64,000 bases of DNA. It comes from Hydractinia symbiolongicarpus. Taxonomy: Eukaryota > Cnidaria > Hydrozoa > Anthoathecata > Hydractiniidae. Below, piece by piece: positions 1-64,000 of this stretch; the first letter of the stretch is position 1, and each line of letters begins with the position of its first letter. Below the pieces are notes generated by a model. The model searched no databases. It was given only the letters and a program-made list of their open reading frames with translations, and had not been told where the DNA came from. The translations under genes and the position numbers were made by a program. The DNA lies in contig NC_079886.1 in the NCBI RefSeq assembly GCF_029227915.1, positions 17,460,501 through 17,524,500 on the forward strand, read 5' to 3'.

Positions 1-147
1 AGGGTACCAGGGTAAGCAGTAATACGAGAGGTAATTTTTGACACAAGGCCGTTGGTACTGGCAAAACGTTTTAGCTGTAAAATGAGATGGGAACCGCACG
101 ACACTACCTCTTTTTCAACTAGAGCAGTTTGATGAGCGTTGTAGGCA

Positions 148-584
148 TTGGTGTCTGTCAACTCCTCGCTTTCGAAGAAATTATCTAAGGAAGATTGTAA
201 CGTAGGGTGCAGAGAAAGTTGGATGCATGGTGCTATATGCTTTACCACCAAAGGTCCAAATTGGTTTTTATCTGTGGATGGTCACGATAAACTAATAGGG
301 TTTCAAAACAGTACCTTTCCTCTTGCTAGATATGGCTGTATGGATACAGCCAGTAGAAAAATGCTGTGGCTGAAGGTGTGGACAACAAATTCCAAACCCG
401 AAATCATAGGTCGTTGGAATATCTATACGAGACAAGAATGTTACCATCATACTTGAGAATGGATAGAGGTACAGAAACTGGAGTGATGGCTACTATGCAA
501 GCATATCTACGTAATAATAAGGGCAATCTTGCTGACCCAACTGATTCTGTTTACTATGTTTCTTCAACTTCGAACCATGTATAA
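148..584 (+). pseudogene. Integrase-like DDE transposase fragment
   Basis: Two overlapping frames (148-456, then 366-584) together read as part of an integrase-type catalytic core. The first frame has SVDGHDKL, whose D at 277 fits the first catalytic Asp, followed by a C-M-D stretch and SRKMLWLKVW. The second has YLRMDRGTETG, whose D near 462 fits the second Asp, and later STSN. The segment where the catalytic Glu (NQRIE-type) should follow is missing, and the frames are offset near 400-420, so the gene is dead. The family resembles the eukaryotic IS3-like/integrase-core transposases, as does the better copy at 45646-46888. No inverted repeats were found here; the window start cuts the context. 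Confidence 0.55.
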
Positions 585-14022: not shown

Positions 14023-16462
14023 TTATCTATTGTAATAGCCAAAAGTGTCTATTCTGCTTTGGTGTTTATCGATAAATTCATCTCCTATTTGAGTTAAATC
14101 CATTTTGTCAACGGAATCAGTATGAATATGGAGGACCATCAAATTGTTCAAACGTAAATTCGTGGTTGTTGATCTAAGGTACGTTTTGACTCGTTTCAAA
14201 GCAGAAAACGATCTTTCGCTGATGGCGTTTGTGGACGGCATTACCAACAACAATTTCGCTATTTTGACAACTTCACTTAGAAGAGTTCTTTGAGATTGAT
14301 CAAAACTTTGTAACAGCTTGATTAGATCGGTTACTTTGAATTTCTCTTTGTCGTAACCAAGGTTGGATGCGATGACTGGGAGTAGCGGTATTTGGACTTT
14401 AGCAAGTGACTCGTTGATATCTCCTTCGTAGAAACGACAAACTGCTTTTAGATGACTTTCCCATTCCTGACCAGTGATCGATTTTAAAAGAACTTCCTGT
14501 AAATTGACGTATGTCTTGTAATCAGGTTGATCGAATCTTTGTTGGATGTAGTTAATAACTAGATCGAAAGTTTCAAAGTAAACGTGGCGATAGTGATCTT
14601 TGGCAGTGTCATGAAAATGATATGTTTCAGGAGGGCCATCTGATACTTTGTTAAAATAATCTGGCATCTTTCTTTTTCGTGGGAGTTTAGGATCAAATAC
14701 TCCGAGTTGTGATTTCCAGACAAGAACTCGCTCCCAAAATAGCTCAAACAATTCGTTGCATCTGATCTTCTCTAACACAGCTAAGACTTCCGACACCCGT
14801 TGCTGTCCCTCTGCTGCCGAAATATCTCCTTGGAGAGACCTGCTAAGATTATCTGTATGTTTCAATAGGGTTTCACCAAGACAACAGCAGAAGACAAAAT
14901 TAAAACTAGACATAACAGTCATTACTCCGTTGATTCTCGCTCTCATATCTGGAAGCCTAACATTCGATAATGACCATGTCCAATTCCTTATGGTTTTCAA
15001 GAAAGGATTCAAGAACCTCACCTCGCACAGTCCATCATGTAGGAGAAAACTCATGGACCGACTTGGATTCATTTCATGTTGCTTCTCTGATATTCTTTAA
15101 TTGTGTGTCTCTCTTTGGCGATTTTTTGACAAGTTTACATATTTCATAGGCAGTTCCAAACGCTTCTTTAAGTTCGGGGATTTCTTTTATCACATCGCCA
15201 ACAGCTAAATTCAAAGCATGTCCGTAACAGTGTGTGTACAAACATTTTTCATTCAACGATTTGATTTGGGTAGCAAGTCCAGATATGTGACCAGCCTTGG
15301 ATGCAGCTCCATCATAACATTGGCCGCGAGAATTTTCTAATTTCAAGTTCATTCGTAAAAGAATATCTTTGATTAAAAAAACGATTCGGTCAGCACTAGT
15401 ATCAGGTAGTGGATGGAGGCCAATGAACTCCTCGTGAGCCTGTAATTCATCATCAACCCACCGAATGCAAATGACAAGTTGTTCCGTATTTGAGACATCC
15501 CCTGTTTCATCTGCAAGGATTGTGAAAATCTCAGCTGACTGAATATTTTTTGCAATGTCACGTAAAATACTAAGTGCTTCGATTCGCAGCATTTCGTTTT
15601 GAATAGCCGGTGACGTGTAGTTTTGCTTTTTTGCAAGCCATGCACTCAGTTCCTTATCATCTTCACATCGGAGTAAAAGTAACTGGTGGAAGTTCGAATT
15701 CAACTTGCTGTGTGTTTCCTCATCCCAATTGCCTCTAAACGGAAGTGATTGTCGCCCTAGATATCGAACGCTTTGCAACAGTTTTAACAGCATTCGTCTA
15801 TTCCTTTCCTTTGTGGCTGCAAGATTATCTACCATGATTTCAGCAATGTCCTTTGATGTACCTGGCGCAGTAATCAGTCTTTCAGTGGCTTCTTTATGGG
15901 AGTCGCTACATTCGTGTTTAGAAAATCCTCTTCCAGATTCAAGCGCCTTTTTCCAATTTCGGTAGCCGGTTTCAGTAAAAACTGTCTCTGCTTTTGTTGC
16001 AGAAATCATGCTTTTTCTAAGAGCACTGAGACAAGTAAAGCAGAAAGCAGCGTCTTTATTTTGGTCGTAATGTAACCAGAGGAACTTGTCAAACCATGTT
16101 GGGTTAAACGATCTTTGTTTCGGATCTTTACCAAACGTTGTTTTTGGAAAACTCAAAGAACGACGTTGGTTCGGTTTAGATGGATCACTCGTTGTTTCCT
16201 TAAAATTATTCTCCGGGTTTGTTGGTGCTGTCGTTGTAGGTGTCGTCGTTGTAGGTGTCGTCGTTGTAGGTGTTGTTGTTGCTTCTTCGTTTGTTCGTCT
16301 GAAAAGCAAAACAAGTGTAAAGGTTGCTTGGATAACAGTTATGGGATGAATTAAAAAGCAGTGGTGGGGTTAACAAAGTAATTAAATATTTATTTATTAA
16401 TAAGTCACTTACTTTTCAGGTCTAATGAGCCATATTGATAAGTCACTTGTTTTCTTCGGCAT
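14023..16462 (-). pseudogene. hAT transposase (TTF-finger/DUF4371 type), broken
   Basis: Exon 1 (16462-16413, starting MPKKTSDLSIWLI) has a GTAAGT donor and joins in frame to an acceptor before 16298. Exon 2 starts with a Thr/Pro repeat, then a TTF-type zinc region (WLHYDQNKDAAFCFTC, HECSDSHKEA), then ILADETGD with the first catalytic Asp. The end carries the hAT dimerisation block (PSTNAISERSFSALKRVK). Between 15074 and about 14930 the frame is interrupted: a stop follows REAT, a TGA lies within F-S-P-T-x-W-T-V-R, another stop follows, and a frame change leads to the 14023-14950 part. The enzyme is dead, but most of the roughly 780 residues can be read. Confidence 0.85.
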
Positions 16463-29639: not shown

Positions 29640-31975
29640 TTCCATTATCGTGTCACATGAAAAGCAAGCGTGTTTCAGATCAAGAAACCATCTGATCACA
29701 CTCTCAATTTAAAAGCCAAGTCTCGCAGACGTTCAGAAACCTTTCAAGAATGTAGTGTAATTCATGGAGACGATGAAACTAGTCCTGAATCGTATGGAAT
29801 GTTGGAAACATTTGGCTGCCAGATTTAAGGCCGAAGAATTAGCATCACATGTTTTGAATAGCAGAAGGCTGTAACAAAAGTCATAGAAAAAAGTGCAGTG
29901 TAAAATACAGAACAGAGTATGACAAATCTAACGAAAATGACCTATGGTCACTCAATGTATATTATAGCCATGTGATGGAGAAGTACATCAATGTTCGAAA
30001 AGCTAGTAAAGCACCAGGTGTACCCAACTTGTCCCATATAAAAAGCTGGCAGAAAAAATTACTAAAATTGACTTTGCTGATCAACGCAGAATTAACTCAT
30101 GACTGGAAGAATATGAATTAGGGGAAGGGAAATTCAGAGATCCTGTTCAATACACTCTGAGAATCGCCCAATTTTATCTGAAGGTTGATGGTAATAGGGA
30201 AGACAAACTAATATTTGTGAAAACTTTTTGAAAAAAGATCCTGCATCTAAACTCTTCCTGGAAGCAATAGGTGGCGATGAAGCTGGAACAAGTTTCCTGA
30301 TGTCTTTCCTTAACGTTGGTGAACGGGTAACAAGTAGCTCGGAGAATTTTTTACATGTAAGGAGCAAATGTGAAAGAAAATAGTCTTGTCGTTGGGCGGT
30401 ATGTCTTAAAATTGGTGAATGAATTGAAAGCACTTGAAAATGAAGTCTTTGAAGTAACTGTCGCTGAGAAATCTTACAAGGTTGAATTCAAACTAGAGGG
30501 CTTGCCAAATGATATAAAAATGCAGGAGAACTGACCAATGCTGCATATCATTTGTATATATTCGGAGATGTCAATAAAGATGATGCTGGTTACTATCGAA
30601 AAAAGTGTGGGCCTAATTGAGATTGGAAGCCTTTTCTTTATCGTAAAAGAATTGAAAATGCAATAAAAGTTGAAAAAACGAAGCAGAGTTTGGCAGGTAA
30701 AAATGTAAAAGCCATAACATTCAGAAATAATACACGTCATTCATTTCAAAGAAATTGCATAGCAGACAAGCAGGAATTCCTCTGGTTCGATTATATGTTG
30801 ATGTTGCCAAGTGTGAGCCTCTTCACCTGAAAAACAACACGGTGAAGGAGGTGTTCATGAAATTGGCTACATTTGTGCTAGCAAATAGTGAAATACCTCC
30901 ATCAGTCAAATTTTTCAAAGAGTTACCAGAAGATTGTTTGTTCTCGTTTTTTTGTTTTTGTGGGTAGTAGCATGAATTCTAATGATTGCGGAAAGAAGCG
31001 CATAACTTGGTTTAGTGAGAATAGACATGGAAAGGGAGATAAAGTTTTTGGATTCAGATTTAGAGGAAAGGAAAGCTTTCAATGGATGAAAGAAGTGTCT
31101 AGTTCCTGCTGAAGACTGTTCGCAGACCTCTTTTGAGGTGAATCAGCTAGACATTTTGGGTACCTTGGTTCAAGAGTATGAGTCGACACCCTTGTACCCT
31201 TTACATAATTCCTGTCCAACTCTTTCTGTCTGTTTGTTTGTTTAATTTTGGTGCCAATTACCTCCTTGGAAAAAAGAAGAATTGTGTTCCTTTATATGAG
31301 CATATTTTTTAGAGGAGCAAAACCTCTAGAATTTAAATTTTATGACTTAACTGGTCGAGTTTATCATTGTGCGTGCACTTTGAAATTTTCATTCTTCTTA
31401 AATTTAAATAATAAATTGCAGGATCAAGATGGAATTTATGGTGTATTGTGTGTTTTCATTCAATCACTATATTTGAGGAAAGTAGTGTCCTTCTTGTTAA
31501 AATTGAAAATATATATGTTGCTATTCTGGAAGATATGAAGGATGCTGCTAGAAAATTGTTTGTATCGTGTGCTAAGTTTGATTTGAAGATTACACCAAGT
31601 TTATGGGTATTTTCAAATGCTGCTCCTGTTCATAGCAAACAATTATCTTAATCGCTCGGACTTGGTTTAGGCAAAAATAGCATGGCAGGGAGAGAAAAAA
31701 CACATCAAGAGATAAAGAAGTATTCAAATAATAGCACACATCAGGATCGGTGGACAGCAATTTTTCGACATTTTACACAGTTTATTCAACCGGTTTTTTT
31801 TACGTGAAAATGGTTTCGATGAGTTGAAATACCACAAAAGAAGTCCAAAGTATTTGCCTGAAATTGATAATGGTTGTTGTTCATGTTCTTTAAAAAAGAT
31901 CAATGACAATTGTGAAATTTGTGATTGCCCAATGGTGCAAAAAATTGTAGCAGAAATAGTAGCATTAGTTTAGAC
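29640..31975 (+). pseudogene. Unnamed transposon-like protein family, copy 1
   Basis: Many short in-series frames read as one large protein: DLWSLNVHYSHVMEKYINVR, LEAIGGDEAGTSFLMSFLNV, VEFKLEGLPND, then 30755-30967 LYVDVAKCEPLHLKNNT, and near 31040 FRFRGKESFQWMKE. After an inserted repeat (31088-31335) the frames 31448-31651 have DMKDAARKLFVSCAKFDLKI and the region near 31655-31960 reads SLGLGLGKNSMAGREKTHQE. The same blocks recur in inverse orientation at 39441-40700. At least eight frame changes or stops make it dead. I know this as a multicopy family in cnidarians but cannot give its superfamily. Confidence 0.5.
31088..31335 (+). repeat. Dispersed GTCTAG-hairpin repeat inserted in copy 1
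   Basis: GAAGTGTCTAGTTCCTGCTG... through GGAGCAAAACCTCTAGAATT matches 37390-37650 and 51890-52140 closely. It interrupts the protein remnant between its FRFRGKESF block and the following block. Confidence 0.8.
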
Positions 31976-32092
31976 GTTATTTTCTATTAGTGTAAGAGTG
32001 AAAAGGTACATGTTGGATAAATTCAATTACCAAGTTCCTGCAATTTATACTGAAGCTTTTGATTCTTTTTTCCACAGCCGTACATATATACC

Positions 32093-32202
32093 GTAAATAA
32101 ATGAATAAGCACCCACTGCGGAATAGCCGCCCCTGCCAAATAAGCGGCCTGGGGTATGGGTAAAATTTTTAAATAAGCTCGGGGCTTATTCAGTCATTTC
32201 AA
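32093..32202. repeat. Short foldback element, about 110 bp
   Basis: AAATAAATGAATAAGC near 32093 faces an inverse GCTTATTCAGTCATTT ending near 32202, with further partial pairing (GAATAGCCGCCCC, AAATAAGCGGC) inside. A MITE-like palindrome; no target duplication was assigned. Confidence 0.5.
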
Positions 32203-32259
32203 GCTTGTCTAAAGAAGTCTTTTATTCCTGTGCAATGAAGAATTGCATCAGAAGTTTAC

Positions 32260-33560
32260 ATACCTAAAAACAACACACCTTGTCCATCCAACATAAAGAA
32301 TTTTCGCCCCATAGCTCTTTTGAATGTTGAAGGAAAGCTCTTTTTTAGTTTGATTTCCAAGCGGTTAGAATCGCATATTATAAAGAAAAACAACTTCATT
32401 AATACTTCCATTCAAAAAGGTTGTATGGAAAAAGTTCCGGGTTGCTGGGAACACAGGTCTCTTGTTTGGTCCACACTTAAGAATGCGAAGGCACAACATT
32501 CTTCACTTTCAGCCATATGGCTTGATATTGCTAATGCGTACCCTTCAGTTCCGCACAAGCTGATTTTTATGGCTCTCAGACGCTAAGGTGTACCAGAATC
32601 CTGGATAAGGCTCATACAGCTATACTACGACAGCCTGTGGAGTAAGTCTTTTTCGGCTTCTGCTTCATCCAGTTGGCATCAACACTGTAGGGGAATTTTT
32701 ATCGGCTGTACACTTTCCATTATACTATTTCTTGCAGCTATAAACGTTATTATTGAATATGTGTTTGTTACCCCCACCCTTATTGGTACTGAAGGTAATA
32801 AAAACAAAATCCCAGACCCCCAATAAAAGCTTTTATGGATGATATATTCTTAATGTCCACGTCAATTCCAAGTACTCACAATTTATTAAACAGGTGTACA
32901 ACAGCTCATGATTGGCTAGGCATGTCGTTTAGGCCTTCTAAATCACGCAGCATTGTTATTGATAAGGGAAAAGTCGTCCAAAGTTCACCGTTTACAGTTG
33001 GCAGCGAAAAAATTCCATCCATTCATTCTAATCCAATTAGGTTTTTAGGCAGAACAATAAACTCATCCTTGTCTGATTCTGCTGCAATACAAGTATTTCT
33101 AAATGATGCTGAAGACAAACTTATAGCTATAGACAGGTCCCTTCATAAAGGGGTCCATAAGGTTTGGTTTTTACACCATCTGTTAATTCCCAGAATCCGC
33201 TGGCCATTATTAATTTATGAAGTTTCTCTATCTACTATCACAAAACTAGAGCAAAGATTAGCAAAACTACATCATTCAATTTCCAACATTTCCTTATATT
33301 CCTCGACATCGCCTTGTTCTCAAATCTGCCAAAATCAGCGGACATCTGTTACTAAGAGATTCTGTCGACCCTTGTGTGTCTAAGTGCGTACCAGATTTAA
33401 AAGCTGGAAATTGGAAAGTTAGTGAGGCAGTTTTTTCGGCAGATAGTCAGCCCAATTTCAAAAGGATTTTAGGCTTGCATCAGACTGGTCGAGCTGGCTT
33501 AAGGTTCTTAGACGACAAACATATACCACCAAAAGGCACTTATGCTTACCGAAAGCTTGT
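32260..33560 (+). pseudogene. Reverse transcriptase of the RLE/USP LINE, copy A
   Basis: From 32260 the sequence reads YIPKNNTPCPSNIKNFRPIA then LLNVEGKLFFSLISKRLE and QKGCMEKVPGCWEH. Motif A is AIWLDIANAYPSVPHKL (about 32511-32560). A stop at 32586 follows; motif B GIFIGCTLSIILFLAAIN lies near 32690-32750. Motif C is AFMDDIFLMS (FMDD at 32832-32843), then a thumb region with RFLGRTINSSL and WFLHHLLIPRIRWPLLIYEV. Frames are interrupted near 32586, 32825, 33320 and 33376. Copies C and D share these blocks. Confidence 0.85.
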
Positions 33561-33599
33561 TTAGAATGTCATTGAAGAAAACAAAGAAGATATTTACCA

Positions 33600-34530
33600 T
33601 GTCAGAGCTGTACAGTTGCATTTGCAAGGCAATTGGGAAAAATGGTGCTCTTATGTGAAAAATGATTTATCTTGGAGAACAATTCTTTCACTGCCACAAT
33701 GTCTAACTTCGTTTTGTATAGGGGCAACCTACGACACCCTTCTCTCTCCAACCAATCTTGTGAGATGGGGAATTGAGAAAGACAAAAGTTGCATTCTGTG
33801 CAAGAAACCATCCTCAAATGTCTCTCACATATTGGGTGCCTGTAGGACCTCCCTTACTCAGGGTAGATACACATACCGTCACGACTAGGTTTTAATAGTT
33901 TTAGTTAAGCCATTAAAAGAGTTTTTGGTATCATATGAACCTCTTAAGGTTTCCAAGTGCAACAAAATTAATTTCATACCGGCTGGTCAATCACCATCTA
34001 AGAAGAGGCATACAAAGTGTCCAGGCCTTCTTCACCTTGCTTCCGATTGGAAAATACTGTCAGATTTAGATTCCGTTTTAGTTGTTCCACCATACATTGC
34101 AATAACACAACTACGCCCAGACGTGTTATTAATATCCAGTTCTTCCAAAACTGTAATTATGGTAGAACTGACTTGTCCATGTGAAGAGAACATGGAATAT
34201 TGGCACGAACGAAAGCTTAAGAAATATTCTTCACTTTGCTATGCTATGAAAAACAATGGATGGATCGTGCATTTCTTTGCCATTGAGGTGGGTGCAAGGG
34301 GTTTCTGTTTAGAATCAGTAAGGACCTGTTTTCGTCGCCTTGGTTTCCCTAACAAGTCTTTACGTTCCCTATTAAAATCCCTAACTTGTACCTCTACGAG
34401 TGCTTCTTTTTACATCTGGTTGTCTCGAAATTCCACCACTTGGGTTGAGCCTGAAAAGGCCCCAATCATTCCTGAAGTTTCTTCTGTTACAAATATGGAA
34501 TGTAAAAATAAGTCACACAAAATCTTGTAA
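33600..34530 (+). pseudogene. CCHC knuckle and restriction-like endonuclease, copy A
   Basis: The frame 33616-33888 contains SCILCKKPSSNVSHILGACR, a CX2CX7HX4C knuckle, followed by the GRYTYRHD block. The frame 33925-34530 has ITQLRPDVLLISSSSKTVIM then VELTCPCEENMEYWHERKLK and HFFAIEVGARGFCLESVRTC. RPD followed about 15 residues later by E-L-T fits the PD-(D/E)XK core of RLE-type LINE endonucleases. These nick target DNA for target-primed reverse transcription. A stop near 33885 separates knuckle and nuclease. The endonuclease frame is open. Confidence 0.8.
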
Positions 34531-34559
34531 AATCAAAAAACCCGAAAAACTTGCTACAA

Positions 34560-35463
34560 GGTCTTCCAAAACAACAGTCGCATTGCCATCTAACCCTGAT
34601 TTTAAGAATGACGGTCTAAAAAACTTGGGAAACACATGTTATGCAAACTCAATCTTACAATGTTTTTATAACCTTCCAAAAGTTAAAGAAGCCATTTTTG
34701 TCAGCAAAACAACCTCAAAGTTAGGCGAAGCATTTGTAGGTGTTCTTCAAAGTTTGGCTGTTTCTATAAGTCCAGTTGATCCCTCCCATTTTTTGCGTGC
34801 TATGCAACATCATATCTCAGCTGCGGAGGGAAGTGCATTTAATATCTTTGCTCAGCATGACGTCCCCGAGGTTCTTGAATATCTCCTACCTGGTCTGTCA
34901 TTAGACTTTCCTTTTCTTGGAAGTCTTTTTAGTATTGGCATCAAGACATCAACCACTTGCAATTCATGTCATATTACCAGCTCCTCAGAAGTTATAGCAC
35001 CATGCATCCAACTTTCTCTGCACCCTACGTTACAATCTTCCTTAGATAATTTCTTTGAAAGCGAGTTGTCAGACACCAATGCCTACTTCTGCCATGTTTG
35101 CAACGCTCATCAAACTGCTCTAGTTGAAAAGGAGGTAGTGTCGTGCGGTTCCCATCTCATTTTACAGCTGAAACGTTTTGCCAGTGCCAACGGCCTTGTG
35201 TCAAAAATTGCCTCTCGTATTACTGCTTACCCTGGTACCCTTTCCATACCTTTTACCGTAGATAGAGAAGTGAAATTTCGTAAAAATTTTCAATTAAGGG
35301 CTATTATCAACCATTGCGGTAACTTAAATAATGGTCACTACACAACCATAGCCTTCGACCAAATGCTTCACAGGTGGATGCATTACAAGATAGAGCAGTA
35401 TTTTCTGTGATGACCGCCTTATTAACAGTCACGGGTCATATGTTTTCTTTTTAGAAGAGCTGA
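34560..35463 (+). pseudogene. USP-type deubiquitinase domain (peptidase C19), copy A
   Basis: The frame running to 35410 carries DGLKNLGNTCYANSILQCF, the Cys box, with the catalytic Cys codon at 34637. Next are SPVDPSHFLRAM, a degenerate QQD box (AQHDVPEVLEYL), zinc-ribbon pairs CNSC and CHVC, LILQLKRF, and the His box NLNNGHYTTIAF with the catalytic His codon at 35336. In a shifted frame the end (F-C-D-D-R-L-I-N-S-H-G-S-Y-V-F-F-L-E-E-L-R) continues to 35463. Overlap with the endonuclease frame at 34400-34530 suggests that one polyprotein was split by a single-base slip. About 290 residues, compact for a USP. Confidence 0.85.
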
Positions 35464-35489
35464 GGTAAGAATATTTTAACCAGAATGAG

Positions 35490-35690
35490 TCAGCAAGGGG
35501 GGCTTGACTACACTCAGTCTTGTCTTTGGAGAGTGACGACTCCACTTATTACCCAAGTCAAAAATAAAAATAAAAACAAAATCAAATAAAAATTAAGTTA
35601 GCAAGGGGGTTTGATCACACATGATCTTGTCTTTGGAGAGTAACGATTCCACTTATTACCTGAGTTAAAAACAAAGAATAGCAAAGTTGA
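35490..35690 (+). repeat. 3' tandem repeats of the USP LINE (2 units)
   Basis: Two units of GTCAGCAAGGGGGCTTGAC...CTTTGGAGAGTGACGACTCC...ACTTATTACCC separated by an A-rich spacer. The same unit occurs at 37019-37345 and 51560-51845, and in diverged form near 42568 and 59750. Confidence 0.85.
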
Positions 35691-35727
35691 ACAGAAAGTG
35701 GTCAAAGTTTATTTTAGGAAGATAGGG

Positions 35728-36050
35728 ATGTCTAGTTTCTGCTGATGACCGTCCGCGGACCTCTTCGAGGTCACCCAGCTAGACATTCAGGGTACTTAGG
35801 TTCAGAAATATGGGTCGAAACCTACCTGCCCTTAGTTAAAGTTCTGTTCATCTTTTCAAATGTGTTGTGTCCCTTTTATTTTTATATATATTTTTTTAAT
35901 TAATTCCTTGTAAAAAGGGAGAATTGTGCTTTTAGAGGCATTTTGTCTAGAGGAGTACAACTTCTAGCTTATTTGCAAAGACCTAACAGGTTGAGTTCAT
36001 CATTGCGGTGGCTTGGCACCTCTTTGTAAATTATTTTCTCATATTCTGTA
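35728..36050 (+). repeat. GTCTAG-hairpin repeat, copy 2
   Basis: GTCTAG...CTAGAC encloses a GGACCTC-TTC-GAGGTC hairpin, then a TTAATTCCTTGTAAAAAGGG block and a GCGGTGGCTTGGCACCTC block. The last two blocks are also found inserted in the USP frame at 51105-51271. Confidence 0.75.
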
Positions 36051-36944
36051 TGTTAAGCCAAATTTCCAAGAGACGACAATCGTCAAAATATTTGATTTTC
36101 ATTGATTCCGCTTTTCGCCATGGCGCAAAAGTTGATTGGTTTTTATTTTTCGTGGAAAATCGCGAATACACACCCTCCAGTGAGATTTGGCAGGGTCTTG
36201 ACGGTCTGGGGCCAGGGATCATTTTTGCTAACTTTCTGTACATAGCGCTTTAAAAATCAATAATAGCTACTGGATAGAGAAGTGCTTTATTAATTGAACG
36301 GCATCATGTACTCCTGATTGACAGGCTTCATAACTACAAGGAGTTTGAAATCTCCAAAAGCTATTTATTTAAAGCAAGTTAAGCCTTATATTTTAAACAG
36401 AACGACAATTAGCTAGCTAGATACACAGTAGCAGTCAAAAGGACGAAGATCTAAAAATAGGACAGCGAAAACGGTGCAGAAAATCAATCCTGTATGCTGT
36501 GACCAGGGGTTATTGTTCCACTTTGGATGGCTCTGCCAACTATGGCTGGTTCTGTTTTTTTCTGGGTGGTTTTGGGTAGTTTCATAGTTAAGTAATGCCG
36601 AGCAGATGTAAGTAGCGTAAGCTACGTCTCACATATCGCTCATTCAAAATTGTTTCAAAGTTCGTCATAATCAATTGGAGTATTTTTTCTTATTATTTGG
36701 CCATGTGTTGAACGTACAACTTCTTTCACTTTCTCCTTATCTGTCTTCTTGCTGTTACTAGCTTTGTCGGCTTCTTCGTCGTAGGCAACTTTCTAAGTCA
36801 CTGTCTTTGTCTATAAAATGTTCCTCTGTAGCAACCGTTTTGTAGGACTTGATTTCTTCTAATAACGGATCCAAATGGCAACAGAATGCTGTAAATTTTC
36901 GGAACCACCTTTTTACAATCTTTCGAAAGATATTCCAATCTTTG
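36051..36944. other. No intact gene; possible decayed frames
   Basis: Minus-strand reading from about 36950 to 36650 gives protein-like but stop-interrupted sequence (Y-S-I-L-L-P-F-G-S-V-I) that I cannot assign. Nothing else is recognised. Confidence 0.3.
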
Positions 36945-37020
36945 TAACGGTATAAACCTTACATCCTTTTCCTTGAAGAGGTTAGGTAAATTGCAGTCAG
37001 CACCAGAACTTCCGGCTTAT
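36945..37020 (+). repeat. 3' junction piece of another USP LINE copy
   Basis: ACCTTACATCC...AGAGGTTAGGTAAATTGCAG...CTTCCGGCTTATGTCAGCAAG matches the sequence just after the USP stop at 51500-51570 and leads into tandem 3' repeats. Confidence 0.75.
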
Positions 37021-37345
37021 GTCAGCAAGGGGGTTTGACTATTCTTATATTTTCTTTATTTTTTATTATTATTATTATTATTTTTATTTATTTTTTTTTT
37101 CTTTTGTAGTCTTGTCTTTGGAGAGTGACGACTCCACTTATTACCCCAGTCAAAATAAAGGCGAAAAACAAAAAAAAATTACGCCAGCAAGGGGGTTTGA
37201 CTGTATCAGGTCCTAACTTTGGAGAGTGACGACTACACTTATTACCCCAGTAAAAAAGGAGAAAACAAAAAAAAAAATTATGTCAGCAAGGGGGTTTGCC
37301 TAGACTGGTCTTATCTTTGGAGAGTGACGACTCCACTTCTTACCC
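37019..37345 (+). repeat. 3' tandem repeats (3 units) with T-rich spacer
   Basis: Three units of GTCAGCAAGGGGGTTTGACT...GGAGAGTGACGACTCCAC...TTATTACCCCAG starting near 37019, 37188 and 37281. Confidence 0.85.
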
Positions 37346-37349
37346 CAGG

Positions 37350-37660
37350 CACACAAGATTGTACAGAGTAGGACAGATGAAAAGTTATGGATGTAAGAAG
37401 TGTCTAGTTCCTGCTGAAGATTGTTCGCACACCTCTTATGAGGTGACTCAGCTAGACATTTTGGGTACCTTGGTTCAGGAATATGAGTCGAAACCCTTGT
37501 ACCCTTTACAGAAGTCCTGTCCTACTCTGTCTGTCTGTTTGTTTGTTTGTTTAATTTTTGTGCCAATTACCTCCTTGGAAAAAGGAAGAATTGTGTTCCT
37601 TTATATGAGCATATTCTTTAGAGGAGCAAAACCTCTAGAATTTAAATTTTAAGACTTAAG
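37350..37660 (+). repeat. GTCTAG-hairpin repeat, copy 3
   Basis: Starts CACAAGATTGTACAGAGTAG, then AAGTGTCTAGTTCCTGCTGA and an ACCTC-TTAT-GAGGT hairpin closed by CTAGAC. It ends with GGAGCAAAACCTCTAGAATT. Nearly the same as 51851-52160. Confidence 0.85.
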
Positions 37661-37689
37661 GCTATGATTTGATTCTGTGAGAATATCTA

Positions 37690-38100
37690 AGCAAGGAAGG
37701 TTATGACCCCTCATCGATCAAAATGGATTCGCGTTTCTTGGCGTTCTGTGACGAAGTCTCTCTTGCACCACTGAAATGTTCGAGTGACATAACAGGTAAA
37801 TTGTCATTCAGGATGTAACCCTTAAGTAACTGTGTTGTTGATTGCCTGCAAGCTAAGGATGTGTTTCTCAAAACCAACAACGTTTTTTTATATCGGCGTG
37901 AGTCTTCACACTTCCTAATCAAATGCATGATCTTTTTACTATTGTTTCTGCCAGCCCATTTAATTGGGGGAAGTGTGGCTTAATTGTGATGTGTTTAAAT
38001 TGTCACTTCTGAGCAAATTTTTTAAACCTGTAACTTTCATATTGCGGACCATTGTCGGATACTACTTGTTGAGCAATTCAATGCGGACCTTATGTACCAA
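37690..38100 (-). pseudogene. Gypsy-like integrase fragment
   Basis: From about 38080 downward the minus strand reads VISDNGPQYESYRFKKFAQ with the second catalytic Asp, then HFPQLNGLAETIVKR with the catalytic Glu. The frame 37701-37928 follows (KTLLVLRNTSLACRQSTTQL). Several stops interrupt it. It differs from the integrase piece at 10380-10771, so a separate insertion; no LTR was found. Confidence 0.75.
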
Positions 38101-38439
38101 ATCATAGCCGGCAAACTTGTGTCAGTTTACATGAAGAATCCGCCATTGACTCTCCGTTGCATAAAAAAAAATTAAAACTACAGATCAGCGCGGAAAAATA
38201 AGTAAACAGTACACGCGAAGGAGAACATCTTTTCAAATCAAAATGGCTGCATACAGTTACAGTCAGACAGAGCGCTTGGCAGATGCAAGAATAGATATCA
38301 AAGAAATACTTTCGAATTGTAAAAATGGTTTAATTAAACATGGTTTAATGATGGTTACTATATGATTGCGATTCTTCGATTGTTACTTGGACTACTCAAA
38401 GAAAAAGAAAGAAAAAGTTATCGTGATGTTGTGTTTTCG

Positions 38440-38520
38440 GAGGAAAGACTGGTTGACACTGGGAAAGACTAGTGACTGTGGGAAAGACCACTGACGGTGG
38501 GAAAGACCATAGATCGTGAA
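38440..38520. repeat. 24-bp tandem repeat, about 3 units
   Basis: GGGAAAGACTAGTGACTGTG, GGGAAAGACCACTGACGGTG and GGGAAAGACCATAG follow one another. Confidence 0.85.
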
Positions 38521-39440: not shown

Positions 39441-40700
39441 CTAGGCATAAATAATACAGTACCCCTCCTCCAATTTTAAGGAGCATTTACAGTTATCATT
39501 GCTTGCATTTGGAACATACTGCCGATTTCTTTTTCTATACCTATGTGTATCAAATCCATTTTCTCTCAAATAAATTAACTGGATGAATTCATGTCTAAAT
39601 ATATACGGCCACCGCTCTTGTACTGTGCTGTTTCGAGCATAGCGAGATAATTTTTGGTGTTTTTGTTCGCTTCCTTCCATAGTATTGATACCAAGTCCCA
39701 TTTGTATGGTTTCAATGTATTCATTGCAATGATGTGGTGCAATTATAGAAAATGCGAAAAGGCTTGTTATAATTGTATCATAACAAATAAATTGTTATCT
39801 CGTATTTCTGCAAAAAACTTCACATTAGGAATTTTCGCTTGTGACAATACAACCGTGAGAATCGTCATGAACATTTCTTTTGTGACATTATTTTTTATGT
39901 GCAATGGTTCAGCACGAGCGCTGTCAATATAATGTTCAAGCAATAGATTTTCTTCTTGTCGACTTAGCAAGGTTTTTGATATATACGTTGTTAGGTTTTT
40001 TCGTGATGTTGCGACTTTCACATTTTTCTTTTTCAACTCTGATTTTTTCCTCAAGGCAGCTTTCACATCATTAAAACGTTTCTTATAATCATATGCTTTC
40101 CAATCACCTGTACCATCCATGTTGAATTTTTTACTGATATCATCAGAGTTAGCTTGATTGACATCAGCAAAAGTGGAAAAATAAAACGCAGCATTTGATA
40201 ATTGCCTTGCTGAAAAAGCTAACATCTTCATATGATTTGGTAAGGACTGCACTTTGAATTCAACTGAATATTCCCCAGTCAAAGTAAAAACTTCAACTTC
40301 CAACTGTTTTAACTCATACAATAATTTGGAAATATACCGAAGTATTACCATACCGTTTTCTTTCACATTAGAACCAAATAATAGAAAGTTCTCAGAGCTG
40401 CCTCCTATGTTCCCCCCTACATTCAAAAAAGATACCAAAAACGTAGTTCCACTAACTGGAGCGTCATCACCACCAATTGCGACGAAGAATAACTTCGAAT
40501 AATTACACATTTTCTTGAAATTCAGAAACCTTTTAGCTTATCTATGCGATGTTGATTCACACTTAAGTAAAATGATGCGAGCTGTTGGAAATACTGAATG
40601 GCATTACGATACATACCTTGACCTATTTCATCTTCATATAAATCGTGAGTCAATTCTTGACTGATTTCAGTAACATCACCAATGTCAATTTAGCGTATAT
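39441..40700 (-). pseudogene. Unnamed transposon-like protein family, copy 2 (main part)
   Basis: The 247-codon frame 39767-40510 reads KLFFVAIGGDDAPVSGTTFL, VSFLNVGGNIGGSSENFLLF, VEFKVQSLPNHMKMLAF, DGTGDWKAYDYKKRFNDVKA and DSARAEPLHIKNNVTKEMF. The frame 39441-39701 gives GLGINTMEGSEQKHQKLSRY and FRHEFIQLIYLRENGFD. Upstream, near 40530-40680, Q-G-M-Y-R-N-A-I-Q-Y-F continues the protein. All blocks are also found in copy 1. The middle block containing FRFRGKESF is missing between 39767 and 39701, and the frame is broken near 40510. Confidence 0.55.
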
Positions 40701-50797: not shown

Positions 50798-51500
50798 ATG
50801 GATGTCAAGATTTTCGAAACATTAATATTCAACACTCGTGTGAAAATCTGCACTACTTGCAGCGCTTGCAATAATATTAGCACCTCTGAGCAAGTAAGTC
50901 CATTTCTTCAACTGCCCTTGACATCGACTGTACAATCTTCAATAGATAACTTTTTGGAGAGCGAAGAATTGTCAGTTGTCAACTCGTACTTCTGTCACTA
51001 CTGCAATAGTTACCAAACTGCAACAGTTGAAAAGGAGGTCGCAGAGTGCAGTTCAATTTTGGTTCTGCAATTAAAGCGCTTTGCCTATAACAAAGGTCTT
51101 GCGTTTTTTTATAATTTTTTAATTAATTCCTTGTAAAAAGGGAGAATTGTGCTTTTTGAGGCATGTTCTCTAGAGTAGTACAACCTCTAGCTTATTTCCA
51201 AAGACCTAACAAGTTGAGTTCATTATTGCGGTGGCTTGCCACCTCTTTGTAAAATATTTTCTTCTCTAAGGTTTGTTCTCCTGTCACATCTTACCCGGGC
51301 ACCGTTTCTATACCTATCACTGTAGACCGTGAAGTCTGTTGTCGCAAGCACTACAACTTAAGGGCTGTAATTAACCACTCTGGGAATTTGAACAATGGCC
51401 ATTACACTACTGTTGCTTATAACCAAGTGCGTGGTAAGTGGTTTCATTGCAACGACAGAGCAGTGGTCTCTTGCAAACAAAGCTTGCTTAATAGTGTATA
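50798..51500 (+). pseudogene. USP domain, copy B, with retained His box
   Basis: The copy starts inside the USP. It has zinc ribbon CTTCSACNN...YFCHYCNSYQTA, then SSILVLQLKRFAYNKGL. A block of the dispersed repeat (51105-51271) is inserted here. After it VCSPVTSYPGTVSIPITVD, GNLNNGHYTTVAYNQVRGKW and FHCNDRAVVSC follow, to a stop at 51500. Removing the insert restores one frame (K-G-L-V-C-S). His and the N-D of the triad region are intact; the Cys box is lost by 5' truncation. The family's conserved end (K-R-L-G-K-L region) and tandem 3' repeats follow. Confidence 0.85.
51105..51271 (+). repeat. Dispersed repeat block inserted in the USP frame
   Basis: TTAATTCCTTGTAAAAAGGG through GCGGTGGCTTGCCACCTC matches 35890-36045. 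No GT-AG borders were found, so an insertion rather than an intron. Confidence 0.75.
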
Positions 51501-51554
51501 ACCTTACATCCTTGTCCTTAAAGAGGTTAGGTAAATTGCAGTCAGCACCACAAC

Positions 51555-55051: not shown

Positions 55052-56250
55052 AAGTTCTTGCTCCTGCTTAACCCTAAATCAAATGTTCGTCTTTGTGCTG
55101 AACAGTCTGTTCTGGACAACCATAAATTATCTAGCTTATCTAATAGTTTTCACGACTCTTCTCTCCCCCCTTCTTCCAAGTCTTCCACCACCTCCGCAGA
55201 TCAAGAAAGCTTTCTCAGCCACATCTTTCAAATTTTCTGATTTTGCAAGTGTTTTATATACGTGTAGGAATGCCTCAGCTCCTGGGCTAAATAGCATATC
55301 TTACAAAGTGTACAAAAAATGTATGAAAATTTCATCCTTCTTGTTTAATGTATTTAAGTGTTCTTTAAAAAATTGTGTTGTGCCTTCTTCAATGGCGTCA
55401 TGCCAAAGAAATATATATTCCCAAATCCAAAACTCCTGTACCATCTAATTCTAACAGAGTATCCTTACCTTTAATAAGGGCTTTGATGGGCGACATAAAC
55501 ATCATGTCTTCGTCTGTTACAAGTTCTCGGTAACCGGTGCACCACAACTCTAAGTTGGGGCAATATGACATTTCGCGCTGAAAAATTCCGTAGCTTTGTG
55601 ATCATCAAGGGAAGATCTATCAATATCATCCCTTTTAGTGTAAGTAGCCCTCAAACGACATTGATTTCTCACAGTATATCCCATCTATTCATGCCTTGCC
55701 AGTGCGTTTTTTAGGAATTGGAGGAAAAGCTGATAGAAGGGCTTGGCGTCATTAATAAGTGCTTATACACTGGAGCTCAAAAAATTTGGATCTTGCAACA
55801 TCTTCTGATGTGGCGAATTCAGTGGCCACTGTTAATATACGAGGTTTCCATGTCTGTTGCTGGGTCCCTAAAGCAAAACGTTTCAGTGTTCATAGGGAAA
55901 TGGCTGAACTTGCACCGTTCCATCACAAACATCTCCCTATATGTTGAATTCTCTCCTTCCCCTTTACCCAATAAGAGCCTCACTTCTATTTTAAAATTTG
56001 CAAAGATTAGTGGTCACCTACTTTTGCGGCACTCCAAAGATCCAATTCTGTCAACACTCAATCCATCTTTAAAGACAGGTTCTTGGAAGGTGGGCGATGC
56101 AGTTGACATAGCTGAGGGTGAATTAAAGTACAAGACCATAAGGGGTTCTGTACAGCGTGGACGAACCGGTCTTGGCAATTGTAAAGTGTAAGTAGTACCA
56201 CCAAAAACCACTCACAAGTACAGAAAGTTAGTCGCAAAAACATAGGCTGA
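55049..56250 (+). pseudogene. Reverse transcriptase of the RLE/USP LINE, copy C
   Basis: The pre-RT region reads FKFSDFASVLYTCRNASAPG then LNSISYKVYKKCMKISSFLF and a segment ending in YIPKSKTPVPSN. Motifs A and B are deleted: the text jumps near 55445 to RVSLPLIRALMGDINIMSSS, where motif C is LMGD (55483-55494) instead of FMDD. The thumb follows in 55718-56191 (KIWILQHLLMWRIQWPLLIY, ISLYVEFSPSPLPNKS). Multiple frame changes. This copy shows the segment upstream of the RT palm that is lost in copies A and D. Confidence 0.8.
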
Positions 56251-56399
56251 GATTGACGAGGAAAACTATCTATCTAAGGCCTGCAGCTTCACGTGCAGGG
56301 CCAATGGACAAGATGGGAGAACTACGTAAAGTTTGATCTTTCATGGAAGAATATCCTAGCAACTCATCCTAATCTCTTATCTTTTGATTGCAATGCACT

Positions 56400-57097
56400 T
56401 ACGATGTTCTACCCTCACCACGTAACCTGAGGAGGTGGAAAATAAATACAGAACCATTTTTTTTCTATGCCACAAAGAAATTTGCACTTCTGCTCACATT
56501 TTTGTGAAACTGCTCTTTCCCAGGGAAACCATTAGACACGATTTTGTACTTACCCATTTGGTAGAAACTTTGAAGAAGTTCATTTTTGAGCTTCCTTCTA
56601 AACCTCCTAAAAAATGTCACAAAATAACCTTTCTGAGAGCCGGGTCAAATACACATACAAAATCAAAAGTGTCAGGTATACTGCACCTGATCAAAGATTG
56701 GAAGATCGTTCCTGACACACACTCGAACTATGTGTTTCCTAGCCATATTGCCATTTCTGAGCTTAAACCGGACCTTGTGCTATATTCAAATGACCTTGAG
56801 CGTGTTATTACTGTGGAACTCACTTGCCCATGTGAGGAAAACATGAATGCTTGGCACTGTACCAAAGTTGTCAAGTTTTCCTGTTTAATGAATCTGATTA
56901 TGGTTAATGACTGGCAAGTTGATTTCTTCACAGTGGAAGTAGGAGCAAGGGGATATTGTGCAAGAACCGTCACTGCCTGTTTAAAAAGAATGAGTTTCAG
57001 CAACCAACTTGCTTATTCCACTGCAAATTATTTCGGTAAAATCAGTATGAAGTCTTCTTTTTGTATCTCACTGGCACGTGAATCCAATGTTTGGTGA
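56400..57097 (+). pseudogene. Restriction-like endonuclease, copy C
   Basis: The frame 56435-57097 starts in a degenerate knuckle (F-L-C-H-K-E-I-C-T-S-A-H-I-F). It then has SGILHLIKDWKIVPD, IAISELKPDLVLYSNDLERV, VELTCPCEENMNAWHCTKV and FFTVEVGARGYCARTVTACL. K-P-D followed by E-L-T again fits the RLE core. The nuclease frame itself is intact over about 200 residues. After its stop, about 140 bp of linker leads to the USP start. Confidence 0.8.
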
Positions 57098-57251
57098 ACT
57101 GACTCCTTAATTCAATTACCCAACTCAAAGCAGGCTTTGCCCAATGTGTGGAGACCAAGGGTGTCTCATCTCACCAAAAGGGGCCTTCTAAAAAGGTTAG
57201 CCAAAATAAAATTGACACTCAACCAATTATTGTCTATAAAAGCATCGGTTT

Positions 57252-58014
57252 TTAACCCTATTCGGTCCGGGGGGGGGGGGGCGGATTCCGCCCCCCCCCC
57301 TGACGGTTTTTTTTAATAACTCCTGATTGCTTTGTTATATGGCTATGATACTTACTGAGTTTCAACATTTATCTATTAGACACCTGCATGCAAATTTTTT
57401 AGGTCCCATACCTTTCAGAGGCTTTGATATTGGCCATTACTCGAAACTACCCCTAAAAATCTCTATAAAATCCTTATAATGGAGAAAATATAATAACTCC
57501 TGTTAGGATTATCCTTAGAACTTGAAACTTGAAACACAACTTTGTTTCATTAAGAAGAATCATTTTGATTAATTTGAACACGTGACTAATCCGATTTCCC
57601 GATTTCGTCGGATTTTACCCAAAAATCAGAAAAAAACGGATTTTCGGGCAATTTTTTGCAATTTTTTATCAGATCCATGTAAAAACCGGAAGATATGTTA
57701 AATAACTTTTATTTAGGTTTCAGAAACTTCAAACAGAATGTAAAAATTCGCTCTAGAACAAAAGTAATTATATTTTAAGCAGATAGCGGCATTTTTAACA
57801 ATTTTTAAGCTTTTGATGACGTCACAGAAAATGTGCTGACGCAAGCAAATTTTTTTTGGCGCCATTTTGTTCCTTTTATGACGTACTATAAGTGTGCCAA
57901 GTTTGATTCAATTTGAACAACCCTATGAAAAGTTATTGAGGGGGGGCGGAATCCGCCCCCCCCCCCCCCCCCGGTCATAGTATGTTCGAAAAACCCCGGA
58001 CCGAATAGGGTTAA
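57252..58014. mobile_element. TTAA-target MITE with G/C-run hairpin ends
   Basis: TTAA at 57252-57255 and 58011-58014 flank 17-bp inverted ends CCCTATTCGGTCCGGGG. Just inside each end a G-run/CGGATTCCG/C-run forms its own palindrome (57268-57301 and 57941-57972). About 750 bp with no coding frame. The TTAA target suggests mobilisation by a piggyBac- or Kolobok-type transposase. It disrupts the USP Cys box of copy C. Confidence 0.85.
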
Positions 58015-58320
58015 GCAAAGGCAACACTTGTCACGCCAACGCCATTTTGCTAGTATTAAGTACCATTCCAACACTGGTGTCAAAGTTGGTCAGAATTGTT
58101 TCATTTGTCACCTATTGCGAGGTCTATTTCGCTTAACATGGCGAAGCTAAAGCAATCATTGTCACCTGTTGACCCTTCGAATTTTCTCTGGGCCCTTGAA
58201 CGTCAAATCCACTCTGATGGGAAAGTGGACTTCCAATTTAATAATCAGCAAGATGTAGCAGAGTTTTTGTTTGTGGTTTTGGACGCACTCATTTTCCCCG
58301 ATTGCTGCAGATAAAATCTC
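58014..58320 (+). pseudogene. USP domain start, copy C (interrupted by the MITE)
   Basis: Directly after the MITE the text reads SKGNTCHANAILLVLSTIPT, a USP Cys box with the catalytic Cys near 58028. In other frames SPVDPSNFLWALERQIHSD and FQFNNQQDVAEFLFVVLDAL follow; the latter is a canonical QQD box, better than that of copy A. Before the MITE the text ends K-S-I-G at 57249. The two sides join at TTAA with a frame offset within the T-run. The remaining USP is missing after 58310. Confidence 0.85.
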
Positions 58321-58424
58321 AACTGAAACCTCAATGTCTTATTACCCTAGTTCAGTAAGGTGCCCAAGTTTACTAACTTGGTCTTCGGGCTTGACAACCC
58401 TGCTGTACTTAGTAAAAATATGTA

Positions 58425-61674: not shown

Positions 61675-62935
61675 GATTGGAAAGTCATAATAACCAATAA
61701 CAAATTTATCAATACAACTGTCCAAAAGGGTTGTATGGAAAAGGTTCCACGCTGCTGGGAACACAAGGCGATGATTGGTCGGCACTTAAAGATGCTAGCT
61801 ACCATCTGGCCAGATATACTAAATGCTTATCCTTCAATTCCTTTGCAATTTTTCTTTTTTGCCCTAAACCGCGTTGACGTTCCACCACATTGGATTTCTT
61901 TTATCAGAAATTATTACATCGGAATCTAAAGCAAGTCATTCTACCTGCTTGCACTAAGTAATTGGCATGAACATTCACGGGGAATTTTTGCGGGCTGTGC
62001 GCTATCTATTATCCTTTCTCTTGCAGGCATCAATATTATTCTTGAGTATTGGCTTCAACTCCTACGTTTATCACATCAAGTGTCACTCCCCTTGATTAGA
62101 GCCTTTATGGGCGATATCAACCTGATGTCTTCATCGGTGTCTGGTACGCAAACGCTTCTGTCCAGGCGTACTGCAGCACTAAAATGGGCTGGCGTGAATT
62201 TTCGTGCCAACGAATCACGCAGCATCATCGTGACCATAAAAAGAAAAGTCCCTCAATTCAAGTACTTTTGCTGTCCAAAAGCCTGCCGACCCCTTAGATA
62301 TCTCTTCCTACATTCCTTCTATCCATCCCATGCCTGCGCGATTTCTAGGCCGTATTATGGATGGTTCTATCTCTGATAGGAAGGCTATTAACGAACTTGA
62401 TGAGAACTTATCCGCAGGAGTCTTTATCATTGACAAGTCGTTTTATAAAGGATCTCAGAAGCTGTGGATTTTACAACATCTATTAATCCCGCACATTCAG
62501 TGGCAACTGCTTATATACGAAATCTCAATGTCTTGTGTCAGCACTCTTGAACGAAAGGTGTCAATGTCCATAAGGAAATTGCTTAATCTTCACCATTCTA
62601 CCACTAATTTGTGTTTTAATGCCTCCAGTTCACCTTGCTGTCTACCGATAGAAAGTCTAACTTCCATACTCAAGTCCACTAAGGTCACTGCTGTGCCAAC
62701 ATTAAAGGACGGTAGATCCAATTCGGTTAGAATTGCTAAAGCAGAATTGAAGATTAAAGAAATTATAAGTTCACCCCATCTCGGTAAGGGCGATTTAGGT
62801 CTCCATCCTAAACCTAAGGTAACTTCTCTTAGACAGCCTCATTCTTACAGGGAATTTGTATCAGTGACTGCAACAGAAATTGATGGAGAAAAGGATATGA
62901 GCAGAGCTTTGCAACTGCAGGTACAAGGAAGTTGA
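61675..62935 (+). pseudogene. Reverse transcriptase of the RLE/USP LINE, copy D
   Basis: Reads NNKFINTTVQKGCMEKVPRC, motif A region IWPDILNAYPSIP (about 61801-61845), motif B RGIFAGCALSIILSLAGIN (about 61978-62035) and motif C AFMGDINLMSSSV with FMGD at 62104-62115. The thumb follows in 62330-62935 (RFLGRIMDGSISD, KLWILQHLLIPHIQWQLLIY, SPCCLPIESLTSIL). Frames change near 61927, 62260-62330 and 62935. The 5' end is truncated at about the same RT region as copy A. Confidence 0.85.
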
Positions 62936-63079
62936 ACCAGATGGGACAACTAAAAAACGACTTCTCCTGGAAATCTTTGCTTGCCATGCTATCAAAACCT
63001 GTTTTTGGTCTGTCTCTAAGCCTAACCTACGATGTTCTTCCTTCTAAGTAATTTAAGGCGTTGCTGTATAAGTACCGAA

Positions 63080-63650
63080 TCTTTCTGGTTCTTGTGTGGA
63101 AAACAAGTCGCACTACAGCTCACATTTTAGGGACCTGCAAAACAGCTCTAACGCCGGGCAGATTCCTTTTTTCGTCACGTCTCCGACATGCGCGAACTTT
63201 CACAGTTGATCACCACGTTTTCTAAATCTATTTTCTCTCCTGTAAAGCAACTAAATAACAAAAGAAATTGTTAAAGCAGGTAGTCACTCTTCTAGCAAAA
63301 ATAAAAATTGGTACGCCTTTTGCATCTTGTCACTAACTGGTTACTTCCTTCAGATATAAATTGTGAACTCATTTTTCCTGAACATTTTGCCATAACATCG
63401 CTGAGACCAGATCTTGTCCTGTGCTCCAACAACAGCAAACGTGTTATTTTAACTAAGTTTACTTGCCCTTGTGAGGAAAACATGGAAACCTGACAATCCA
63501 AAACGCTCTCTAGGTACATCCCTTTGGTAAATATCATCAAGCATAATGGATGGCAGGTAAATCTGTTCGTAATCAAAGTGGGTCCACGTGGATATTGCTC
63601 TCGCTCGGTTGCCATTTCTTCGAAAAATGGGTTTCCCAAAGAAAAAACCT
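63080..63650 (+). pseudogene. CCHC/RLE region, copy D
   Basis: The knuckle remnant reads T-T-A-H-I-L-G-T-C-K-T-A-L-T-P-G-R-F. The frame from 63308 gives ITSLRPDLVLCSNNSKRVIL then TKFTCPCEENMET and a stop. The sequence continues out of frame with NIIKHNGWQVNLFVIKVGPR then GYCSRSV. Here K-F-T replaces E-L-T, so the putative catalytic Glu is lost as well as the frame. Confidence 0.75.
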
Positions 63651-63654
63651 CCTC

Positions 63655-64000
63655 CAATAGGCATTCTCCATTCGGCTTCAGATTGGACAGTTATGTGTGA
63701 TCTTGATACAACATTAATAATACCACCTGATGTAGTTGTTACTCAACTTAGGCCTGATATTGTGTTACTTTCTCGTATGACAAATGCAGTGATAGTTATA
63801 GAGTTGACATGTCCTTGTGAAGAAAATATGGAGAAATGGCATGACACGAAAACTGATAAATACTCTCTGTTATTGCGGACAATACAAGTTAATGGTTGGG
63901 CAGTTCACTTCTTCGCAGTTGAAATTGGCGCTCGTGTGTACTGTTCAGATTCTGTGCGTACTTGTTTACGTCGTCTAGGTTTTCCACCCAAGTTAATTCG
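63655..64000 (+). pseudogene. Second, adjoining RLE domain, truncated by the window end
   Basis: Immediately after the copy D endonuclease a second one begins: IGILHSASDWTVMCDLDTTL, VVTQLRPDIVLLSRMTNAVI, VIELTCPCEENMEKWHDTKT, FFAVEIGARVYCSDSVRTCL. It is open to the last base. It is closer to copy A (TQLRPD, SVRTC..RRLGFP) than to copy D, so it is a separate element joined head-to-tail, not an internal repeat of one protein. A USP would be expected just beyond the window. Confidence 0.8.

Follow-up and report, generated by a model that had tools for sequence, protein, structure and literature searches.

An R2-like LINE family in Hydractinia symbiolongicarpus with a ubiquitin-specific protease at the C-terminus of its protein

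Hydractinia symbiolongicarpus contains a family of R2-like long interspersed nuclear elements (LINEs) with an unusual protein. Reverse transcriptase (RT), CCHC zinc knuckle, restriction-like endonuclease (RLE) and a C-terminal C19 ubiquitin-specific protease (USP) are united in one polypeptide, and of this anatomy there is virtually no doubt. The starting point was a decayed copy in a stretch of 64,000 nucleotides (assembly GCF_029227915.1, contig NC_079886.1, positions 17,460,501 to 17,524,500), which is referred to as the window. As to function, we lean towards the view that the USP, while tethered, deubiquitinates the element's own ribonucleoprotein (RNP) or proteins at the insertion site.

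The copy in the window

At 32,173-36,039 (plus strand), the window holds a LINE copy that is truncated at its 5' end and frameshifted. RT, thumb/linker, CCHC knuckle, RLE and USP follow each other in this order within 32,173-35,467. Its parts are listed below (P numbers designate proteins, L numbers loci).

32173..33317 (+): R2-like RT, 5' truncated and interrupted by a stop codon and by shifts of frame (tblastn match to residues 319-711 of P0053)
33316..33789 (+): thumb/linker, from RT to knuckle (within the tblastn segment pair with P0053 residues 721-1137)
33790..33843 (+): CCHC zinc knuckle CILCKKPSSNVSHILGAC, CX2CX8HX4C (from the sequence)
33844..34443 (+): RLE, with RPD (34114-34122), ELTCPCEEN (34165-34191) and KLKKY (match to P0006)
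34444..34612 (+): RLE-USP linker, with one frame change in this copy (alignment with relatives)
34613..35383 (+): in-frame part of the C19 USP domain (Pfam UCH)
35384..35467 (+): end of the USP, from the Asp box to ...FLEELR and the stop, out of frame here (alignment with P0002)
35468..36039 (+): 3' untranslated region (UTR) with ~100-nt repeats and no poly(A), terminating in ...TTTGTAAATTATTTTCT (comparison of copies)

The FMDD motif of the RT is found at 32832-32843. In Pfam, the RT piece at 32239-32583 matches RVT_1 (1.7e-07, 31.6 bits, cut-off 29.6), while a second RT piece remains below the cut-off (0.0011). The knuckle scores just below the cut-off for zf-RVT (7.4e-06, 27.0 bits, cut-off 27.5). 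Knuckle and RLE together (33691-34443) are 52% identical to P0006, and a Pfam search of the RLE piece gave no match. The USP (34,613-35,465) matches UCH (1.9e-28, 100 bits, cut-off 23.9) and holds GLKNLGNTCYANSILQ, two CxxC pairs, LQLKRF and NNGHYT. According to the family alignment, the catalytic Cys is encoded at 34637-34639, the catalytic His at 35336-35338, and the zinc pairs at 34958-34969 and 35090-35101.

A preliminary description, made from the letters of the window, had read this locus as a LINE of the RLE type that encodes a C19 protease downstream of the endonuclease. The domains and their order are indeed found, as are FMDD, the RPD...ELT endonuclease motifs (all on the plus strand) and, within the USP, the zinc pairs, LQLKRF and the NNGHY box. 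The knuckle spacing, given there as CX2CX7HX4C, has to be corrected to the one listed above. The USP had further been placed in the next frame with an overlap of 130 bp. The frame switch is real, but it is one of the frame changes of this broken copy; relatives that are open have one ORF, so that the overlap represents frame damage rather than gene design. A reading as two genes, or as overlapping genes, is likewise excluded by the single ORFs of other members.

The window copy is a dead, decayed element. Its truncation point lies at ~32,173-32,197, it has stops at 32,584, 33,562 and 33,886, and the frame changes within the RT, at the RT-linker and RLE-USP transitions, and ahead of the Asp box. 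The last of these changes, near 35,384, leaves neither the Asp box nor the C-terminal tail in frame with the rest, so that a complete USP cannot be made. An Rfam search of 30,500-38,500 with E-values up to 1 found no ribozyme or known RNA family.

The protein family

The protein set comprises 161 members, at least seven named Hydractinia and one from the window. Models for RT (which also matches the thumb/linker), RLE and USP are all matched by 64 proteins, invariably in the order RT, RLE, USP. The rest match RLE and USP (1), RT and RLE (21), RT (9), RLE (1) or the USP alone (65). At least 21 proteins with UCH and RT domains have a length of 1,356-1,474 aa (1,435 aa for P0053). A single ORF with RT, RLE and USP, which the preliminary description had proposed to look for, is present in the Hydractinia genome and also elsewhere. 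An RLE-USP protein profile has 230 relatives, of which 120 are listed. Among the 41 members longer than 1,000 aa, F.DD is found in 39, the knuckle in 40, RPD in 40 and an ELTCP-like motif in 37. Pfam detects RVT_1 in P0053 and L077, and UCH scores 112-126 bits in L077, P0053 and P0110. R2 chains are matched by profile at 1e-37 to 1e-36, and R2 structures hold Foldseek ranks 1-7 for the predicted model, with ~860 columns.

RLE and USP are connected by a linker (median 51 aa) that is in one continuous frame in 65 relatives. It is predicted to be disordered and is rich in Ser, Lys, Pro and Thr. Gly-Gly occurs in 2 of the 65 linkers and is absent from the other 63.

Two RT-RLE-USP proteins (P0084 and P0102) are filed under metagenome-assembled genomes of Pseudomonadales; they are probably eukaryotic contamination. 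Four RLE-USP-type proteins (P0173, P0187, P0188 and P0190) are each exactly 553 aa long and are encoded on megabase contigs. This group may reflect one recent burst or a two-ORF form. Among IMG/VR contigs searched with the window USP, no relative was confirmed.

The RLE-USP junction across the genome

The USP beside the RLE is no chance neighbour. In the 480.9 Mb of genome searched, the USP query gave at least 146 matches (144 of 1,248 candidates scored) and the RLE query at least 157 (150 of 694 candidates scored). The junction was counted for USP matches beginning at most 5 residues from the query start. The window copy, also listed as L001, and three tandem duplicates were left out, and the later-starting L017 gave no row. 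An RLE C-terminus lies upstream on the same strand in 63 of 76 USP-start matches (74 loci; the copies are not independent, several loci being near-identical pairs such as L007/L008, L037/L038, L072/L073, L075/L076). L009 contributes two different USPs. L048 was matched twice, probably at one start, which gives 62 of 75 if counted once. The gap from RLE to USP is 170-203 nt in 60 of the 63 cases and 134, 41 and 2 nt in the remaining three. The preliminary description had named a lack of the USP in other copies as a finding that would speak against it; other copies do carry the USP. Even RLE loci that seem to be devoid of a USP have a USP start downstream in all 10 cases examined (one only 16 residues long); these were drawn from 18 loci that, on visual inspection of the 57 top RLE matches, had no counterpart among the USP matches.

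One locus, L077, has an open frame of 1,418 aa with RT (319-705), RLE (847-1080) and USP (1127-1416). It contains FMDD, CFLCHKEICTSAHILGAC, GNTC, GHYW and CNDR, and matches RVT_1 (8.3e-16) and UCH (5e-32) in Pfam.

The USP domain

In all 48 complete domains (>250 aa; 48 of 65 proteins with RLE and USP), the catalytic Cys, His and Asp and the four zinc cysteines are invariant. The window copy retains Cys and His, its Asp box being out of frame. The predicted model has the USP fold and matches the USP2-ubiquitin structure. The best structural matches are USP2, USP11, USP46 and USP21, and identity is 25-28% in structure alignments with cellular USPs. The profile comparison of C19 and C48, suggested in the preliminary description, comes out for C19 (UCH), so that a match other than C19, the second finding that would have spoken against that description, did not appear. 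Pfam finds no C48 match in the window USP, L077, P0053 or P0110, so that an identity as SUMO-type protease was rejected; an N-terminal C48 domain as in NeSL was not found in the latter three either. The USP is very probably an active deubiquitinase.

USP identities track those of RT (Mantel r 0.85) and RLE (0.86) among 32 proteins in which all three domains are long, with none of 2,000 permutations as high. Of the three domains, conservation is lowest in the USP (34%, versus 49% for RT and 57% for RLE), and its identity is below that of the RLE in 99% of the pairs. Foldseek against viral models returned giant-virus USPs and some RNA-virus polyproteins. A viral RT-RLE-USP relation does not follow from these matches.

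Phylogeny and origin

The RT-RLE tree has 58 rows (43 with USP, 12 with none, 3 with Ulp1). The USP family forms one clade of 49 rows with a support of 99, which includes all 43 USP rows. The six USP-less rows within it end at most 38 aa past the RLE and are thus cut-short sequences. The sister of this clade consists of four rows, three of which have an N-terminal Ulp1/C48 domain; the tree holds no Repbase NeSL references. Pfam detects C48 in P0130 (4e-24), P0132 (2.6e-22) and P0133 (1.8e-23); P0141 has a C48 domain as well. The nearest solved protease to P0132 is SENP1. As C48 is N-terminal and C19 is C-terminal, two separate gains seem likely, and C19 would most simply be an independent gain rather than an in-place swap for C48. 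In the USP tree, 59 rows of transposable-element (TE) type group together with a support of 94.

A C2H2 pattern ahead of the RT is present in one (P0110) of 20 USP-clade proteins with >300 aa in this region, and in five of eight long rows outside the clade (P0130, P0132, P0137, P0144 and P0148). The rarity of C2H2, together with the lack of a shared target (see below), is consistent with the targeting finger of R2 and NeSL having been lost early.

Mobility and copy ends

Nine copies of subfamily A, the window copy among them, have an identical 3' end to within a base, after which the flanks differ. Similarly, all five L077-type copies stop at the same base and have unlike flanks. Site-specific insertion was rejected, as the flanks of these nine and five copies have no common target. 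New copies would be made by target-primed reverse transcription (TPRT), to judge from the biochemistry of R2; a fixed 3' end with varying 5' truncation is a sign of this mode.

A 1,721-base RLE-USP query from L077 has 43 matches, 25 of which span the whole query. Identity is printed as 100% for 18 of the spanning matches (own place included) and as 98% for five, with one each at 94 and 92. These near-identical, dispersed copies point to recent amplification. Of all 43 matches, 14 start late yet are 3'-anchored, and four are without the query 3' end.

In five L077 copies of the full-length type, the 5' UTR is preceded by a piece of the copy's own 3' tail (186-197 bp in four copies, ~109 bp in one; L088-L098), with the 5' ends of four not reached. 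Two L077 copies are arranged head-to-tail 5,367 bp apart (G000:C11:27111322/27116689), and five copies of a related subfamily are 5,296-5,305 bp apart (G000:C13:23681114-23703255). Tandem spacing and tail pieces suggest templates that were read through from a tandem neighbour. Such an arrangement resembles the pLTRs of Penelope or a 3' promoter of the HeT-A type.

At L006 and L009, a subfamily-A copy is followed on its 3' side by another, diverged element, whose sequence begins partway through the USP region.

Proposed function and alternatives

We propose that the USP, tethered to RT and RLE, would strip ubiquitin from the RNP of the element or from proteins at the insertion site. Candidate substrates are the ubiquitinated ORF protein, RNP-bound factors and chromatin at the nick. 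The RNP would thereby be shielded from ubiquitin-driven degradation or silencing, at or before insertion. We infer from the sequences that the USP stays attached to RT-RLE; with a disordered linker in which Gly-Gly is rare, it is expected to work while bound to the RNP. Whether its targets would be the RNP and insertion site, or host factors further away, is an even call. The preliminary description had suggested the element's own RNP or host silencing factors as targets, and such a role agrees with the invariant triad, the flexible tether and the fastest evolution among the three domains.

Several points weigh against this interpretation. A complete protease cannot come from the window copy. 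The fast evolution of the USP could reflect loose constraint rather than a moving target. Within subfamilies, the median dN/dS of the USP is 0.54, which is moderately low (87 pairs, not independent; dS is saturated between subfamilies), and that of the RLE is 0.80 (20 pairs); such values are expected where copies are mostly dead. In 13 of the 76 USP-start matches, no joined RLE is found in at least 1,500 bases upstream, which 5' truncation would explain. The RT-RLE tree was built by a quick method, its root was a single row on a long branch, and treekit flagged a meeting of long branches. A single origin is less than firm in the USP tree, where the TE rows P0093 and P0110 and the host-type P0146 branch from the base in no clear order and the split between host and TE rows has a support of only 54.

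Among the alternatives, a role in chromatin or repair is the best placed, yet we consider it unlikely. The USP would then deubiquitinate histones, PCNA or repair factors at the nick, allowing TPRT and second-strand synthesis to be completed. Its best structural matches are, however, generic USPs, and a substrate-specific insert or partner motif was neither seen nor searched for.

Less probable still is an anti-silencing role, in which the USP would target silencing factors of the host, among piRNA, chromatin or stress-granule proteins, instead of the RNP. Being the fastest-evolving of the three domains, the USP has the look of a partner in an arms race. Ubiquitin itself, however, is nearly invariant, and a free USP product is not predicted, given one ORF and few linkers with Gly-Gly.

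Proteases are built into retroviral and some viral polyproteins, and the USP could by analogy be a processing enzyme that cuts the element's own polyprotein. This is very improbable. USPs hydrolyse bonds after the Gly-Gly of ubiquitin or of tails of this type. No ubiquitin-like domain came up in Pfam searches of L077, P0053 and P0110, and self-cleavage at Gly-Gly is unsupported by linkers of which only 2 of 65 have it.

Finally, the idea of a functionless passenger, a host USP gene that lies beside a dead LINE or was captured by it once, can practically be dismissed. In its favour, the window copy is a pseudogene, and some copies bear NCBI names of host genes (USP8, USP50 or USP51-like). Against it, the junction recurs in 63 of 76 matches, ORFs are single in Hydractinia and in other sources, the triad is intact in 48 of 48 domains and the domains are co-inherited.

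Other elements in the window

Additional family members and an inserted element are found in the window.

3..248 (-): fragment of a USP, truncated where the window begins
50810..51531 (+): fragment from another subfamily that consists of the USP alone, with no RLE match upstream, split at 51104-51262 by a 3' UTR end resembling that of the main copy
55064..58420 (+): second, degraded RT-RLE-USP copy of the L077 subfamily (sequence match)
57254..58010: element of 757 bp that has inverted ends (CCCTATTCGGTCCGGGG...), is bordered by TTAA on either side and splits the second copy at its RLE-USP junction; by its look a piggyBac-type miniature inverted-repeat transposable element
61687..63995 (+): third copy, with RT and RLE; the window stops before any USP is reached

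The ~100-nt repeats (GGAGAGTGACGACTCCACTTATTACCC...) of the family 3' UTRs occur at 35488-35680 and 37108-37351. A second, partial 3' UTR, from another subfamily, is located at ~36945-37660. Other RTs are encoded at 5148-7097 (plus strand; RVT_1 1.2e-35), with an identity to L077 of only 21.5%, and at 1037-2359 (minus strand; RVT_1 8.4e-09). Transposase frames at 14026-16369 and 53852-54934 (both minus strand) are of the hAT type (DUF4371, Dimer_Tnp_hAT) and DDE_Tnp_4, respectively. The LINE is flanked by two unnamed coding pieces, at 29858-31973 (plus strand) and 39441-40537 (minus strand), which look similar by eye (e.g., RENGFDTHRYRKRN and RENGFDELKYHKRS). A frame of 256 aa within the latter (39770-40537) has no Pfam match.

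Relation to known systems and significance

The family shares with R2 (8gh6, 9dou, 9nl3) a single ORF with RT, thumb, linker, CCHC knuckle and RLE, and a fixed 3' end. It differs from R2 by the USP after the RLE, by a C2H2 pattern in only 1 of 20 proteins and by having no shared target. With the cellular USPs (USP2, USP8, USP46 and USP21), the element USP has fold, triad and zinc fingers in common, but it is part of a retrotransposon protein. Prp8 of the spliceosome has at its C-terminus a Jab1/MPN domain, a deubiquitinase fold of the metalloprotease type that is unrelated to C19. Its RT-linker-RLE order resembles that of RLE LINEs (PMC5678591, a text without the words Jab1 and MPN), and the similarity to the element is a parallel only.

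Ulp1-like proteases at the N-terminus have been reported in NeSL and Utopia-1_TSP (Kojima 2015, PMC4640811). These, too, are RLE LINEs with a cysteine protease from the world of ubiquitin and SUMO, but theirs is an N-terminal C48, whereas the Hydractinia family has a C-terminal C19. Among DNA transposons, OTU and Ulp1 proteases are described for Ginger1 and Helitrons, and a Trichomonas vaginalis protein combines transposase_11 with Peptidase C19 (both in PMC2836005). A C19 domain beside a mobile-element gene is thus not new in itself. Helinoto is presented, in the title of its report, as Helitron2 with deubiquitinase-like domains. Ginger1 (with OTU or C48), the Helitrons and the T. vaginalis protein are not LINEs. 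A LINE with a C19 domain was not found in the literature searched, Repbase and subscription papers being outside this search. The word ubiquitin is absent from the main text, as accessible, of the Hydractinia genome paper (PMC11067881).

The family has a practical consequence for genome annotation, as at least three NCBI Hydractinia genes (P0002, P0005 and P0231), annotated as USP8-like and USP50 or USP51-like, look like LINE pieces. Hydractinia is a laboratory cnidarian and thus offers a living system, with near-identical copies and an open full-length frame. To our knowledge, SUMO-type (Ulp1) proteases are known from one LINE lineage, and their role has never been proven. It is tempting to speculate, although we rate this below an even chance, that a large undescribed LINE lineage gained a deubiquitinase once, fixed it, is still amplifying in Hydractinia, and uses the enzyme as a counter-defence against ubiquitin-based control of retrotransposition. 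If this is true, it would be the first known case of a LINE that fights the ubiquitin system.

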